Shown here piece by piece: positions 9,195-42,774 of a stretch of DNA of 64,000 nucleotides. Below the pieces are notes generated by a model. It had not been told where the DNA came from. It saw only the letters and a program-made list of their open reading frames with translations, and searched no databases. How positions within the stretch are numbered: position 1 is the first letter of the stretch; every line of letters begins with the position of its first letter. Position numbers and translations under genes: made by a program. This DNA comes from Psococerastis gibbosa (lineage: Eukaryota; Arthropoda; Insecta; Psocodea; Psocidae), in the NCBI GenBank assembly GCA_963971405.1, contig OZ020486.1, positions 33,131,419 through 33,195,418 of the forward strand, in the 5' to 3' direction.

Positions 9195-10111
9195 ACACAG
9201 CAGCATTATTTTTTAACTTGCAGTATTAGCACCATATCTACAAATGTTGCATTCAACGTGCATTACAATGCTTGAATAGGGAATTGGAAAGCAAGATTAT
9301 GGGCATTTTGCATGCAGCATGTGATAATACAATAGGTACTTAACGAAAAGCATAAAACTACTATTATATGTATTGTACTCAGATAAACGTTCATATAAAC
9401 CCATGTATGTTTATTTATCACATTTAATCGCAACATTCAGGTTTCATAAAATTTGCGTACACATTATTTGACTATATGATAAACAATGTGTGTCTCCATA
9501 CAATAAGTACATTTTGATAAAAATTATGAGAATATTTTTTTATAGCAGCGCGTTAGTTACTTGATCACAGGAGTGGGGGAGGGAGGGGAGGGGCTAAGGT
9601 GTTATGCTTGTTAGATTTTTTTACTATGGTAACGACCCTTAACAACCTGCAAGGCGAGGAATATTTCTGGGTCAAATATAATAATAATAATAATAATAAT
9701 ATGTGTATTGAAAACAATTTTACATTTACACTGATCAGCAGTAGCCACAACAGCTACATAGCTGAAAGAGAATCAACGTACATTTATCACTCAAAATTAA
9801 AAATTAAAAATAGAAATAAATAAAATAAAATACAGGATCACATGATAAATTACTAGAATTTCATATTTTTCATTTAAATAAAATAAATAAATAAGGGGTT
9901 TATGAGGACAGGAGGAACTCCACGTTTTCTACTGCACACAGCCAGACTCTAACTTGACTGGCGAAAGTTCTGGGCTTCATGTCAGGGTCAAAAAAGAAGG
10001 GCAGAAGTTATACAGTATGTGCGGGTATTCGCTTATTTATATGTTCACCCCCAAATTAATCGAGACTAATTTAATCATATTCAGCAAAATTAAGTACTAA
10101 TTATGTAATTA
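9195..10111. other. Unassigned stretch with (ATA)n
   Basis: An (ATA)n microsatellite occupies about 9677-9701. It is preceded by a G-rich patch (9570-9597). Nothing else recognised. Confidence 0.5.
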
Positions 10112-10344
10112 CAAAGGCTTTCACGCCGCCGAAGTCAAAGATGAACCTGTAGAATCAGGGCTGATGGGCGATGGTAGATCGAAAAGCATACTTCGAAACG
10201 ATTCGTCAACACCTGCGGTCGACATCTAATTCAGTGGTACTATACTACATGGACTTATAAGAATGTATCTCGGAGACTCCCTGCCCGCAGACGCCTGGAA
10301 GTACGCTTTCAGACCACGATGGCACAGTTAATCAGCCCGGATTA
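10112..10344 (-). repeat. P-family palindromic repeat, copy 1
   Basis: The left part (caaaggctttcacg, then gtagaatcagggctgatggg) and the right part (atcagcccggatta) are partly inverted relative to each other. The middle, read on the minus strand, gives agatgtcgaccgcagg and gttgacgaatcg, matching the centre of the 22708-22894 copy. The conserved core bases are mutated here. No protein frame. Confidence 0.7.
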
Positions 10345-12952
10345 TATAGGTTTATTAAAACACTAAATATTTTACAACTAGAGAATAAATAATATAACAA
10401 AGACAAATAATGAACAGCTCGGCGCTTAATAGTGAAATGTTCGAAGATGAGTATCATACAGTATGAGGACATGAACGACAAGCCCGACAAAAAACCTACA
10501 CAGCCTGGAAGACGAAAGGTCTACAAAAGCTAAACCTATTTTTAACTCTTTTTCCACACTAGTCCATGTCCACGCAGAAGTAATTGAAGTGCGTGTTTAC
10601 TGAGAGGTATAAATGAGTCCGCAGAGGGGAGAGGGGTGGAAGGATGCAGACACAGCGCGCTGGAACGAAAAAGAGGGGGGGGGGGGCAGAGGTAGAGGCA
10701 ATTATAGAGAATGAAGGGAGATGAATGGGCCGCGCGTTACAAATCAGCACAGCGCCAACCCGAAAACTTTGCCTCGAATTGTCCGCCACCGACCCCCCGG
10801 CCCCCCGCAGCTGGCCTACTCATTTTATCTCGCAGTGGACAATGCTCGACGTTTGTCTCTATATTTCGCTTATATTCCACTGCTGATTAGGGCTTACTGC
10901 TGACGTGCTGAAATGGGGTAGGTCTACATCACTGCTCTCCCCAAGTTTGCGGTCACTGCTGCTTTACAGAAGTTAGGGGGTGAAAACGATTCTGATTATA
11001 GTAAGGGTTGTCTGGAAGCTCGTATTGCATTGTTTTTTGTATTTTGTTCAGAGATAGTTTACAATGTGAAAGCCATACAGTTGTTAAAATACCTCATTTT
11101 CAGTGATATTTTAATGTTTATCATGCATTGACATAACAAAAACCTTTTTGTAATATGTTCTGCATGTTGATAAGAAGAGTTTTCGTAATATTTTGTTAAC
11201 TAGAAATGGTCGTGTATTTTGGACAAAATTAATTAATTAATGTGGTCAGACGAAAAATTAATAAAAAAAATCCATATTTTCCCTCAAGGCTGCCTACTTC
11301 CCCTACAATATATACTATAAAATTGGTTAAATGTACTTTATTGTGGTTTTGAAGTTCATAGCTCAAGTGAGAAAATGTATATTTCCTGCGAAATATTATA
11401 TTACTTATGAATTTCTCATCTGACTCTTTCTTATCCTATGGCTGAGGAATCAGAAATGATTTAATTTCGTCACAAAATACACGAACAGTACTTGTTTACA
11501 ACATACGATTTTTTTTTCGTATTTCTCATCAGTTCCATAATGTCTCCAGCAAGGTTTCCGCCTTATATAAAATAGTATTAGTATGAAATAGAAATAATAT
11601 AACAAAATATAAAAAAAAGGTGTTGCAAATACGGAACTGAACAAGGTTAATAATAACTCCTGGCTAAAGAATGGCGTGGAGGTGCAAACTCATAAGCTGA
11701 ATACAGAAGTTAGTAATGGAAAATTACAAATAAAAAGCTTCGTAATGCAATAGTTAACAAGGTCGGTTGTATTGCTAATACGTTAGGTATAGCCTACCTA
11801 ACTTTCTTTCAACTACGTGTAGAGTGGAAAAATGTTACAATAATTTTGACGAAAAGCCCTAATTTGTGTCCTACTTTTTCGTTCCCTTTAAATAATTCAA
11901 GGCTAATTTCAAAGCCTTGGGGCTAAGTGCTTTATCGAATTTCTTGGAAACTAGGAACACTACCTGGAAGCCTACTTTGTTCCACATGCTGCAAAGTTTT
12001 CGGAAATGCTTTCTTTCTCTTTTTGACTTAACATCCTAAGTTCAATCGATCTTGTCATAATTACTAATCATAACTTCAATTTCAACCGCAGCTACATACT
12101 TTATCTTTACACATAGGTGTGACTTGACAAAACAAAAAATATGCAGAGAGTTGCTGACAACCAATGGTTGAAATTGTGTCCTCAGAAAAGGAAGCCTTTG
12201 AAGGTTGAGGGGGTGCTTGAACCACTAAGCGCCATACAAGTCAGCGCCAATGTCTTTAGAGCTATGGTCGTAGCTAGCTGTTGTTGTGGGGGCTTTCAGG
12301 CAAACTGCGGCCAACAAACTTTTAAGGCGTGCCCCCCGATGATTTTGACATAGAAATCACACATAAAATGAATGGTAAAATGGACCCAATATGTAGAATT
12401 CCCGGAGAGCGATCGATTCTATTAAGAATTTTTTATGGCAATCTCCAAATGGTAAACTACTTAAATATTGATTGATTTCGTGTGGAAATTTCCAGAAATA
12501 AACAGACGCAAAATCAATGATATTAACCTACTTTTAACGCTATTACAATGATTACTAATAGCGTTCCACAGCAGCAGATAACAGTGTTGTCGATATGTAG
12601 ATGATATATCAGTATTTTCGTATTGATTCCCTTCTTTGTCTTCACATGCCTCCATTGTCCATTTGGATGCCTTTGTTGGGGGTGATGAATAATTCAGGTC
12701 CGGATGATATGGGGTGGTTTACGGCGTAAGCTCCATAGAAAACAACATTGCCTACCGGCTATCATTATATCCTACATAATCGAACATTGATCACTTTATT
12801 TTGGTCTCGAGTACGTGATACAAAAGCCATGTTCAATACTTCCATTAATAAGGTAGTTACGTTGAATTACATAATTAGTGAAACCTGTTGTTTTATGTAC
12901 ATAGGTAGACTCGCATCCGAACTTGGTGAAGCTCTGCTTACCCATGTTACAT
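10345..12952. other. Unassigned non-coding stretch
   Basis: A 12-base G run lies at 10675-10686. The rest is AT-rich, with short frames up to 76 codons and no signature. I see no repeat shared with other parts of the window. Confidence 0.45.
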
Positions 12953-18935: not shown

Positions 18936-19550
18936 AACGCTATCAGACGTATCGGGAACCCGCCCTAAGTAACATAATATGGGTACTCATAGCTGGTGAG
19001 TAATTATATTTTTCACCGGAAGGCAAAGTACCCTAAATACCAGACTCCTCATATTCTTTAGACAAAAAAGGCACACGTTTCCATGATTGCACGGAGACTG
19101 GTAATAGGCCGACTACCGTACGTATGAATGAGATTGTTTTTGCAGTCGTTAGGTTGGTACACTGGGTATTAGCTGGAAGCAATGGCTTCGCCGACACAGG
19201 AGTGGAATCCATTAAATAGCTACCTAAAAAGACAAATGTGCCTGCTGGGAGATTAAACTACGTCAGTTCAGTAGGTAATTTTAATTTTTAGAGTAATTTC
19301 TTAATATACTGTATTTTGCTCCAGGAGATATTTACTAGAGATCATAGGTTTGCCTGGGGATTGTGTGTAATTAAATACAGGACTAGCTTATATGCAGTTC
19401 TGGGAGAGGTATTCTTATGCCTTATGATGGTATTTAACCAAAATCGGGTGTTTTTAATAATTTTTTATGGGTTAGCGAGTGTTCTGATGTATTTGAAAAT
19501 ATGCCCAAGTTTCACAAAGTCACCCCGGAGAATACAATTAAAACTTTACA
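18936..19550. other. Unassigned non-coding stretch
   Basis: A frame of 85 codons from 19316 has no recognised domain. No repeat match. Confidence 0.4.
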
Positions 19551-19793
19551 CAGGCTTTCACGGCCGGAGTTAGAGAATGAAGCAGTAGAATCCGGGTTGA
19601 TGGGCCGTGGTCAATCTGAAAGCGTACTTCCTAACTTTTCGCCAACATCTGCAGTTGTTACTAAACCTTCCTTATATAATCTTAGACGTCTACGTGATAC
19701 CACAGAAAATGCTGCCGCAGATGCTGACAAAACGTTTGCAAGTACGCTTTCAGATCGACTAAAGTCCATCAACCCGGATTCTACTGCTTCAAT
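19551..19793 (+). repeat. P-family palindromic repeat, copy 2
   Basis: caggctttcacggccgga, gtagaatccgggttgatggg and gtggtcaatctgaaagc open the copy. The close is ctttcagatcgact, then catcaacccggattctactg. Two degenerate centre motifs occur in opposite orientations (gccaacatctgcagttg and tgccgcagatgctgac), so this copy is a head-to-head pair. It lies inside a 133-codon frame (19501-19902), which is therefore an accident of repeat sequence. Confidence 0.75.
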
Positions 19794-22511: not shown

Positions 22512-22673
22512 ACAATACTGTTGGACAATTTTTGAAAATATATTTTAATACATGAGTAGGTTTATTATACATACTAACATACATACATTTAAAGCACATA
22601 TGAATGGCTACAACCCTGTTATTAAGCTATTGGACCATTATTGAAAATTTTAATACATGAGTAGGTTTATTAT
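22512..22673 (+). repeat. Local duplication, ~60-bp units
   Basis: The block (c)tgtt..., ttggac.att.ttgaaaat, then taatacatgagtaggtttat occurs at about 22512-22570 and again at 22614-22673, separated by 43 bases. The second half is nearly identical. Confidence 0.75.
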
Positions 22674-22707
22674 AAAAACAAATATAATGTACATCTTAAC
22701 ATCATTT

Positions 22708-22924
22708 GAAGAACCAGTAGAATCCGGGCTGATGGGCCGTGGTCGAATTGAAGGAGGCTACGGAGCCACCGAGGTACAACCTTAGAAGTCTACGCAGCGC
22801 CACTGAAGATGTCGACCGCAGATGTTGACGAAACGTTTGGAAGTTCACTTTCAATTCGACCACGGCCCATCAGCCCGGATTCTACTGGTTCTTCATTTGA
22901 CTCCGGCCGTGAAAGCCTTTGCAG
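22708..22924 (+). repeat. P-family palindromic repeat with hammerhead-like core
   Basis: Perfect 45-base inverted arms: 22708-22752 (gaagaaccagtagaatccgg ... tcgaattgaa) and 22850-22894. Between them, 22803-22834 reads CTGAAGA, a stem gtcgac / gttgac (one G-U pair) and GAAAC. That matches the CUGANGA - stem II - GAAA layout of hammerhead ribozymes, which are known in Penelope-like retroelement terminal repeats. The final closing pairs of stems I and III are not convincing, so a working ribozyme is not established. No reverse transcriptase or GIY-YIG remnant is present. Confidence 0.7.
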
Positions 22925-24150
22925 TTACTTAACATCATTGTTTTATTTTTTTTTAAATCTAGTAATAGGAATGGGAAAATAAAATATTTTTTTTTGCATT
23001 TATTTGAATTTAGCGCGAAAACAGTAAAAAACCCGGTCACGTGATTTCATGTCAACTGTGACACCATAATCCAGTGGAAGGGCGAAAATCAGCTGTTTTG
23101 AGTAAAAAATTAATAGGTCTAATAAATTAAAAAATTAAACACTTCCACTGGATGTCCCGATATTTTTTCGCCTTTGGTATTAAGAATAGAATACATAATA
23201 TGAGCAATCAACAGACACCGAAAGCACTTACAATAAAGAACTCGTACAACAAAAGTTGAGTCAATTGCAATCCAATAGTCAGATGTAAAAAATTTAATTA
23301 AAAAAAAGTAAAACCTCCAACATTCAGGCTCCAGACCTACAAATACGCCAGATTTAAAGCCAAATTAAACCTGGTGTAAGGAAAATTGACGCGAAAAATT
23401 CCATAATGTAAGCATTGGCGCCTAAAAAAATTCCTCAGGGAGGAAATTATTGTTTAGGCCGACATAAATCGGAACTTTACACTGTAATAAGGTTCAAGAA
23501 GGTTCGAGAACTATAATCGAATTGCCCTCGTGCCTTCCCATCATTACCATAAATTATAAAGTTCTCCTAAGCATCGATCGGATTTACTTTTTGCTACTTC
23601 CTCCATTAATGACGGCTCAACCTCAATGGATCCCTCTGCGATATTGACCAGTTGCGTACTAACCCAAAACTTTGGATTATTCAAACATAATTGATTGAAT
23701 GTCATTTAGCAGAAACAAGTTGGAGGCAAAGTGGAGAAAGTGTAGCTGCGGTTAGGTTGGGAGAGGGACGGGGGGGGGGGGGGAAGATTGATGAACACGT
23801 ATAAGCTGGAATAAGCATGTTGACTTTTGCTGTCGAAAAGGCGGGATAAGCTGTCTAGAGCGTGTGAGCCTCCGCGCTAAAAATGACGCTGCTACTGATA
23901 TTTAAACTTTACGTTTTGTTACTGCTACCTTATGCTGTTTGCGACTGATTTGATGGAGAAACCTTGATATGAGAATTTAATGTTCAACTGCTTACACGGT
24001 GTATACTTACCCGGGAAGGAGCAGAGAAATTTCATGAAAGAACGGTTGCATAACGATTCATTTGCGCAATAAAGAAACAACTCAAGGAAACTATAGAAGA
24101 TGCTTGCTGCGGAAAACAGTGGGAATCACTCGTAAACCAGCCCGTACCAC
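22925..24150. other. Unassigned non-coding stretch
   Basis: A 14-base G run lies at 23770-23783. No gene or shared repeat seen. Confidence 0.45.
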
Positions 24151-37782: not shown

Positions 37783-37915
37783 CCAAAGTGTACTTCCAAA
37801 CGTTCGCTGTTGAACTGTGGTCGACATCTTCTGTGGCACTACACAGATATCGAATACTACATCTCAAAGGCTCAGTAGTCATATCGACCACTTTTAGCCC
37901 TGGTTCTTCTGTTCC
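37783..37915 (-). repeat. P-family repeat fragment, copy 4
   Basis: Read on the minus strand: gtgccacagaagatgtcgac, cacag, then gcgaacgtttggaagtacac. This is the centre of the P family, with the CTGAAGA and GAAAC core bases changed to CAGAAGA and GAACG. A degraded outer arm (gaagaaccagggct on minus) lies to its right on the plus map. Confidence 0.6.
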
Positions 37916-40738: not shown

Positions 40739-42774
40739 ACACGGCTCACATTATAGTGGGTAGAATATTCTTATATGCTTATTTCTCCTCTATGAAAGCA
40801 AAGTAAAACAAATACAAAATCTCAAGACAGTGCAATACAAACACAACTCCACCACTGAAACAAATTATTAACAGTAACCACAGCATCCTACGATATCCTA
40901 TATCTCCTATATATATTTGTAGCTAGCGGCACTCGTAGCAGGAAATAAAGTAATACACTTTATACACCGGTGTTATTATGTTAATACTCTTGGGTCCATT
41001 TTATGTTCTCAATGGGGGGAGGGGGAGCGGATCAATAGACATGTGAGCGACGGCTATTTTTACAGTATTTGCACAACCCCTAATTGCGTTTACTTTCCCC
41101 CACTGACGAGTAGTAGATTGTTTACAGCTGAAAATCAACCCCCGCAACCTTTATTGTGGAAATCTCCAAAATGCAAATGTTGAACTCAAATGAGATTTTT
41201 TCCCTGTAAAGTTTTACTATGCATTGTGCTGACATTTCAGTTGCTTAATGTGTAAACAATCACAGTACCTTACCTCATACAAAATTGTTTGCAATTTTAT
41301 TAGGCGTTTGACTTCAAGCAATGTCGCTGTGTTGGACTTCTACTACAATACAACAGAAATTTATTAATATTAAATTATCATTTTTCACAAAAATCCCTTT
41401 CACTATTTTAATAAATAAATAAAAAAATTATTATTAAATCAAACGACAACATTTACAATATTAAAAATGGTTATAATTGAACTCTGGACACATAAGGACT
41501 AAAATTTCACATATTCACATATTGTACAATTTGAAGTGTAGATGTGTGTTACAAGTACGTACAGTATCCTAATAATTACAGTACATGTCAGGGCTGTTGG
41601 AGCTTAACAACGTGTAGTGGTACATGTACCAGTCACTAAATGTAACAGATAGGTGTTTCAAAACTAAATAAAAGTACACTGTGTACTTAGTACTTGAATC
41701 AATTACGAAAAATGCGCATGGGAGATGTTTTCATTATAAAGAGAATGCTACAGACTCGTGTAATTAGCAAAATGTTGGATGCGTACATGAAAAGCAAACT
41801 AGGCCGGGAAAAGCGGAAAAGCATACCGAGAGCTGAGGAAAATTACAAAAGCACGTGTGGAAAACGATTATTTTTAAGTGGCTTTAAAGCCTGTCATGCG
41901 ATTTTACAAAGACAAGCAATTTAATTTGAGCTTTATGCTGTTGTCAATGTTCTTACGTTATTAATAGCACTGTAAATGAGCGTAATATATCTGTTCTAAC
42001 CACCTTCACTCCCTCCTATTCTACTTGTTGGAAGAGGGCATGAATAAAAGGGTATAATTTTCCAGGGCAAAGGGTGAACTGAGGAGGAGGGGGGTGAACA
42101 AGATTTATGGGGCGAAGAGATAATAGAGCGGCCCGATTGCCCTAGCTTACGGTAACGCATGTCCCATATCCGAAAACTGGGACCAGATACTAGATAGTCT
42201 GGAATCAGAGAGTCCCCCATGCATCAGAGCTAGGATAAGGAATCTGGGACATGAGTTATATGCCAGGCTTGTTTCTGATACTAGCTAGCTCGGTTCATCA
42301 GCCGCATATGTCATAGTACATATAGATAAGCTATCAGGGCTCTGTTTTCGCTGGCTATGGGTTGGAGTAGTCGTCGTATTGGTATGGACTACCCTGTTAT
42401 TTAGTCGTTGAGCTGATGAACGGAGCATAAAGTGAATGAATGGAACATCCTTCTACAAAAAAGACAAAAGTTACATTGACTATAGTTTGCGCCAAGTGCC
42501 AACGTCGAATAATATTCTGTTGGACGTCTGATTGACCAATCACACGGGTCTACAAGACAATTAGACATCTTGTGCGCATGCATAGACATATGATCAACCC
42601 AGTAACAGCGTTTTACTTTTTCTAACTGAGTTTCTATATACACTTCAATGTAATATAAGATATTGTACAATAGCTCCATGACTATGACTCAAAAATCAAA
42701 ATGGATTTTTACTCATTCTGTCCCACGTCTTCCCACTAAGAAGGGTTCCAAGCCGTAATACGCCACGAAACCAC
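40739..42774. other. Unassigned non-coding stretch
   Basis: No gene or matched repeat. A (TA)n patch lies near 40908-40918. The 76-codon frame at 41694-41924 is basic but has no family signature. Confidence 0.4.

Follow-up and report, generated by a model that had tools for sequence, protein, structure and literature searches.

Palindromic dwarf insertions of a Penelope-like element in Psococerastis gibbosa: a probable record of two-ended priming of reverse transcription

Introduction

No explanation has yet been agreed for the inverted repeats of Penelope elements or for their optional tail. Minimal type I hammerheads are reportedly present in Penelope-like elements (PLEs), an observation credited to Cervera and de la Pena in 2014 and to Lunse et al. 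in 2017.

The closest described system is the Poseidon PLE of Anolis carolinensis, PAc. According to the part of the PAc report covered here, reverse transcription begins inside the ORF at two adjacent sites (+111-118) and the stretch between these sites forms the genomic tail; in vitro, both target strands are cut and extended and no difference in start site was seen from one strand to the other (PMC11167929). The same part of the report states that hammerhead cleavage of PAc needs the protein and depends on C3/G8, that insertion in vitro proceeds without cleavage and that cleavage was not detected in Anolis RNA-seq reads (PMC11167929). For the Penelope of Adineta vaga, self-priming on an antisense template was favoured and tests between models were called for, as far as the source was covered (PMC3846280). 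Minimal PLE hammerheads usually have a helix III without non-conserved nucleotides and may cleave as dimers, according to the covered part of a review (PMC7761336).

The locus examined here is a short palindrome in the window, by which is meant the whole stretch of 64,000 nt that was analysed. Measured against the covered part of the PAc report (PMC11167929), its family has a homologous ORF N-terminus, a putative internal start of reverse transcription, a tail in the range of 30-40 nt, AT-rich targets and a hammerhead-like motif that overlaps the start codon and has the unpaired base in common with PAc. It differs in that its genomic insertions show one start site per end whereas PAc showed no strand difference in vitro, and in that its cut triplet would be GUU and not GUC. 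Likenesses to the A. vaga element, again from the covered part of that paper (PMC3846280), are an inverted pLTR, a tail (31 bp in A. vaga) on one of the pLTRs, a pLTR reaching into the ORF, target-site duplications (8-10 bp where present in A. vaga) and a TCACT initiator. Copy number is low in A. vaga, whereas the window family has mass-produced dwarf copies whose centres vary, something that self-priming leaves unexplained. The CUGANGA / GAAAC core and a helix III reduced to the conserved nucleotides are shared with the minimal PLE hammerheads, for which, in the covered sources, tandem or dimeric use is described; by its layout the window core is a candidate for such use.

Results

The element in the window and its relatives

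A sequence-only reading of the window had described a palindrome at 22708..22924 with perfect 45-bp inverted arms. The palindrome exists, the arms aligning at 22702-22752 / 22850-22900 over 51 nt with 96% identity, and 46/46 positions are identical when the window copy is compared with its own reverse complement. The element itself extends wider, to 22707-22928, and is bounded at both sides by a 12-nt duplication, CTTAACATCATT. Perfect arms were also correct, but they are not a defined or fixed terminal repeat because the centres vary in 75/75 parsed copies. The parts of the window copy are as follows; reference positions are those of the yardstick to which all copies were aligned.

22695..22706, unstranded: left target-site duplication CTTAACATCATT, repeated at 22928-22939
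22707..22752, minus strand: left cDNA, the antisense arm, which begins at RT start site 1 (reference 0 to -45)
22753..22756, unstranded: 4-nt junction joining both cDNAs; the inner-end pair is distinct in 75/75 parsed copies
22757..22928, plus strand: right cDNA in sense orientation (reference -138 to +33)
22763..22828, plus strand: C-terminal reading frame of an upstream tandem PLE ORF (EPPRYNLRSLRSATEDVDRRC*); the L151 and L152 ORFs end in the same frame, which is also in L063
22800-22802 / 22838-22840, plus strand: stem I of the hammerhead-like core, CCA/UGG
22803..22837, plus strand: minimal hammerhead-like core, CUGAAGA-U-GUC...GAC-GAAAC-GUU, with the predicted cut between 22837 and 22838
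22809..22928, plus strand: beginning of the PLE ORF, 40 codons from the ATG (MSTADVDETFGSSLSIRPRPISPDSTGSSFDSGRESLCSY)
22895..22896, plus strand: putative RT start site 1 (+87/+88 from the ATG), placed from insertion ends
22896..22928, plus strand: 33-nt tail from site 1 to site 2, site 2 being at +120
22928..22939, unstranded: right target-site duplication CTTAACATCATT, its first C common to the element end

Just left of the insertion (window 22542-22686), a 40-nt A+T-rich stretch is repeated directly at a distance of 105 nt.

In the 409 Mb of genome searched, a 30-nt piece of the tail was matched 2,885 times when 3 mismatches were allowed, and its reversed control not once. At least 40 near-full-length relatives of the window copy, 90-100% identical to it, were found among 2,405 first-look candidates. 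The window palindrome is one among thousands of tiny dead Penelope-type copies. The relatives already noted at 10.1, 19.6 and 37.8 kb were confirmed, with 76-84% identity across the best stretches:

10101..10353, minus strand: older relative, tail aligned at one end and none seen at the other
19549..19790, minus strand: older relative, tail aligned at one end (to +26) and none seen at the other
37785..37854, minus strand: older, decayed relative, core alone aligned, with a tail-like end nearby by eye

Full-length relatives

Searching the genome with MSTADVDETFGSSLSIRPRPISPDSTGSSFDSGRESLCSY gave 150 scored matches among 11,558 first-look candidates, at least two of which sit in open frames of 909 and 910 aa (loci L151 and L152; 881 and 882 aa when counted from the ATG). 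The RVT_1 domain was found on both ORFs (E=9.4e-12 in L151, E=1.6e-11 in L152). The GIY-YIG profile PF01541 gave no score on these intact ORFs, at E<=0.001 for L151 and at E<=10 for L152 and the C-terminus of L151. The L151 C-terminus did align to 15/20 fetched loci that PF01541 had found, and the ORF contains GVYRIPC and YIGTTKR, presumably the GIY-YIG motif. The N-terminus of the ORF is 49% identical (39/79) to that of PAc, and direct pLTRs with 99.45% identity flank the L151 ORF. Together, the reverse transcriptase domain, the homology of the L151 C-terminus to loci found by PF01541, the direct pLTRs of L151 and the PAc-like N-terminus place the window family among the PLEs, probably as an EN-containing (Penelope/Poseidon) type. 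The Penelope traits observed are direct pLTRs (L151), inverted arms with a tail at one end and target-site duplication. The suggestion made from the window alone, of a Penelope derivative, is therefore upheld; of the RT and GIY-YIG domains to be looked for in full-length copies, the first was found directly, and a link to the second comes through the homologous loci and not from the Pfam profile.

Just downstream of the full-length PLE, at L151:5577-5652, there is a long near-perfect hairpin of 33% G+C, possibly a MITE-like insertion. It gave the strongest Rfam matches among five PLE loci (mir-392/mir-548, under the gathering scores).

Inner ends of the cDNAs

End statistics were taken from the first 91 exact tail matches among those listed of the 2,885 (<=3 mismatches). 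They were used in positional order, came from contigs C1 and C2 (90 loci, L041-L070 and L091-L150) and were aligned to the yardstick. This sample was preferred to an alignment of 40 copies picked by similarity to the window copy, as the latter is biased to the window copy's length. A left arm was found in 75/91 copies and 16/91 had none in the fetched span, which for 13 of the 16 was the 700 nt upstream of the tail pattern. The right arm is long in five of these 16 (-213 to -721), where a left arm of great length could fall outside the 700 nt.

Among the inner ends lying within -160..-8, 38/141 fall at -147..-138 (right 23/77, left 15/64), and the right cDNA of the window copy ends here as well. 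The sequence at this pile-up is TCACTCGC, and TATAAA begins 33 nt upstream of its A (L063), suggesting a putative transcription start with a TATAAA promoter. The simplest reading of the pile-up is run-off at the 5' end of the mRNA. Some copies run beyond the putative start (right 12/91, left 8/75), as is expected of read-through transcripts.

Five inner ends at -242 (L057, L060, L097, L113) lie upstream of the putative start in a CAA-rich stretch and may be a second start or a parse artefact. In L060, the left arm passes the putative start into the end of the upstream ORF and the centre holds a rearranged piece of that region.

A second, weaker excess is present at -57/-58, with 10/103 internal ends (binomial P=4.8e-6), the count varying with the parse from 8 right and 7 left ends when looser to 6 right and 4 left when stricter. 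For any 2-nt window the probability in uniform simulations is 5.5e-4, and the next separate window, -19/-18, has 6 ends. Position -57 is the first base past the hammerhead cut predicted by analogy with PAc; the pile-up had been seen prior to computing the predicted cut position. Genome-wide counts for three 24-nt windows across the predicted cut were 2,686, 2,407 and 2,739, the third window omitting variable positions and differing in CpG content. The first step drops 279, as expected from ends at -60..-57, though windows of such unequal make-up are not strictly comparable. Hammerhead cleavage is the preferred explanation of the pile-up over pausing of the reverse transcriptase at a stem, because the pile-up, by eye, does not lie beside the edge of stem II. 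The excess is not explained by cDNA ends annealing to each other through the palindrome AAACGTTT, since the copies that end in it have varied partner ends.

The hammerhead-like core

The layout of a hammerhead catalytic core had been recognised between the arms, and CTGAAGA...GAAAC is indeed found at 22803-22834. A loose hammerhead pattern matched twice in the window against 0.65 expected and at least twice in 14/100 shuffles; since the bare pattern is not significant, the argument from the motif alone was dropped. The second match, at window 42271-42301 on the minus strand, was taken as chance. The proposed Rfam search gave no hammerhead and no Rfam family reached its gathering score in the window. 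Rfam matches in the 901 nt surrounding the element, taken to E=10, included no hammerhead either. The Rfam search of five other PLE loci gave none, and the genome search with RF00163 gave no match (73 scored among 48,463 first-look candidates).

The sequence-only reading had seen a weak point in the base before CTGA, which did not clearly pair. The difficulty vanishes if the cut is set right after GAAAC-GUU, as in Anolis, for the A before CUGA then pairs with the U after the cut. Stem I would have the three pairs CCA/UGG with positions 4-6 unpaired, stem II would be GUC/GAC, and one unpaired base separates CUGAAGA from stem II. The PAc core has the same layout and the unpaired base, with CCU/AGG (also three pairs) as stem I and GCC/GGC as stem II. 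Hammerhead-like cores were found too in L073 and L075-L077, loci found by GIY-YIG. Their stem I reaches six pairs at most (L073 and L075, GUUAGU/ACUGAU), their stem II is of GGU/ACC type and their unpaired base is T, C or A; one stem I pair is broken in each of L076 and L077 (two breaks among five copies). Both stems make their first three pairs in the window family, in L151, in PAc and in 3/5 copies of L073/L075-L077. In this hand-placed comparison of eight sequences, stems built from differing bases across families give modest support for hammerhead pairing. On paper, the core of L073/L075-L077, in which stem I is longer and a 4-nt loop precedes the cut triplet, would be a stronger ribozyme candidate than the window core.

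Within the window family the core hardly varies. It is coding in two frames, as it closes the upstream ORF (..TEDVDRRC*) and opens the next (MSTADVDET), and its conservation is thus by itself no proof of a ribozyme. The core may then have arisen by chance where two reading frames overlap and have no function as a ribozyme, a reading that accounts for both peptides and agrees with the lack of an Rfam match, the unpaired base before stem II and a stem I of three pairs only. Against it stand the same layout and unpaired base in PAc, whose cleavage depends on C3/G8, the recurrence of the layout in L073 and L075-L077 with differently built stems, and the pile-up of cDNA ends at the predicted cut. 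Coincidence is therefore judged possible but the less likely answer. The core fits a minimal PLE hammerhead, and by this analogy it is plausibly a ribozyme.

Outer ends, tail and target sites

Counted from the ATG, the outer end lies at +87 on the left and at +120 on the right, with the 33-nt tail between these positions. This right-end tail is homologous to the Anolis PLE tail, which spans two RT start sites. The outer left end falls within -1..+8 of site 1 in 67/75 copies and at site 2 in 0/75; the remaining 8/75 left arms begin elsewhere, at -4 to -57. Independent choice of the site would give about half of the tailed ends a tailed partner, and 0/75 was observed. Genome-wide, the ratio between tails adjoining an arm (2,264; 30 nt, 2 mismatches) and arm ends (4,531; 21 nt, 1 mismatch) is 0.50, the two patterns differing in length and in the mismatches allowed.

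Because an exact tail was required of the 91 copies, that sample cannot show tail-less insertions. These do exist, L151 ending at site 1 without a tail or an inverted arm. Among the first 100 arm ends listed there were 24 inverted pairs, 18 with one exact tail, none with two and six with no exact tail; the last six may be tail-less. Six of the 18 one-tail pairs (C1 3.0-3.7 Mb, spacing 210 or 214 nt) are probably duplicates. Several palindromic copies spread along C1 ~2.99-3.74 Mb have the same distance between their arms (214 or 210 nt), and the region looks like a segmental duplication cluster.

Target-site duplications of at least 7 nt were found in 61/75 parsed copies and of at least 11 nt in 44/75. 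With shuffled partners (200 shuffles) the means were 3.0 and 0.6 and the maxima 8 and 3, respectively. The lengths found are 7-15 nt, mostly 11-14, and the 44 duplications of at least 11 nt are 72% A+T compared with ~62% in the window.

Centres and arm depth

The inner-end pairs are all different, 75 distinct in 75 parsed copies, and so the copies appear to have inserted independently rather than to descend from a single palindrome. The arms meet within 25 nt in 64 copies; the other 11/75, with arms more than 25 nt apart, were left out of the comparison of depth. Of these 64 adjacent pairs, 25 have a left arm deeper by at least 10 nt and another 25 have a right arm deeper by as much. In the 51 copies whose arms overlap by at least 30 nt, the same stretch is copied twice; 181 positions differ, and 24 differences from the majority are common to both arms. 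Shuffled partners (200) gave a mean of 4.5 and a maximum of 12. The excess of shared variants implies that the templates were often the same or closely related source copies, or that one arm later converted the other.

These observations bear on snap-back self-priming, in which a single cDNA or antisense template folds back and copies itself to give inverted arms. Head-to-head palindromes would be produced in this way, and private variants common to both arms of a copy (24 versus 4.5 expected) would follow. An arm made by folding back cannot, however, hold bases absent from its template arm, and left-deeper copies being as common as right-deeper ones speaks against such an origin. Nor would snap-back be expected to place the tail on the right side only, or to leave the folded-back arm 33 nt short, at site 1, in 67/75 copies. 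Snap-back is thus improbable.

Still less probable, and close to dismissal, is a non-LTR retrozyme, a hammerhead-bounded unit spreading through circular RNA. The short unit, the type I hammerhead-like core and the duplications are what a retrozyme would have, but only one core per dwarf copy is present in the 40 aligned, so the tandem hammerheads that should bound the unit are absent; the outer ends lie at RT start sites, many inner ends lie at the putative mRNA start and the unit belongs to a coding PLE. A DNA transposon of MITE or fold-back kind, bounded by 45-bp inverted repeats and likewise short, palindromic and present in thousands of copies, can hardly be considered, given that arm length differs per copy, the duplications range over 7-15 nt instead of being fixed, one end carries an extra 33-nt tail, and the element's sequence is the start of a PLE ORF.

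Discussion

The palindromes are likely to be dwarf, dead-on-arrival insertions of an EN-containing PLE made by double target-primed reverse transcription on two RNAs. The template would be the 5' end of the PLE mRNA. The PLE enzyme would cut AT-rich DNA with a stagger of ~11-14 nt, and both target strands would prime reverse transcription at internal sites within the first 120 nt of the ORF, site 1 (+87) being used on one strand and site 2 (+120) on the other. One start site per strand would leave the 33-nt tail at one end and not at both. Each cDNA would head for the 5' end of its RNA, halting at the mRNA start, at a hammerhead-cleaved 5' end or earlier. Joining of the two cDNAs end to end would give a head-to-head palindrome with a centre differing in each copy. 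Two separately primed cDNAs would allow the deeper arm on either side together with a left end 33 nt short.

The thousands of short insertions form a natural record, as each copy keeps both starts, both stops and the join. What is new is that this genomic record argues for priming at both ends, each insertion receiving one tail. In the part of the PLE literature that was covered, no earlier statement of a one-site-per-strand rule or of run-off at a hammerhead site was found.

A wider reading, in which integration of Penelope is obligately two-ended, is offered tentatively and with rather less confidence than the double priming itself. A dimeric RNP would carry two RNAs, and a hammerhead formed between them would cleave part of the templates in vivo. 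One RNP subunit would start at site 1 and the other at site 2, giving the tail and the inverted pLTR, and cDNAs that ran off at the cleavage site would keep a trace of cleavage in vivo. The family may thereby offer an in vivo readout of hammerhead cleavage. The self-complementary ACGU beside GAA could be a contact that pairs both RNAs.
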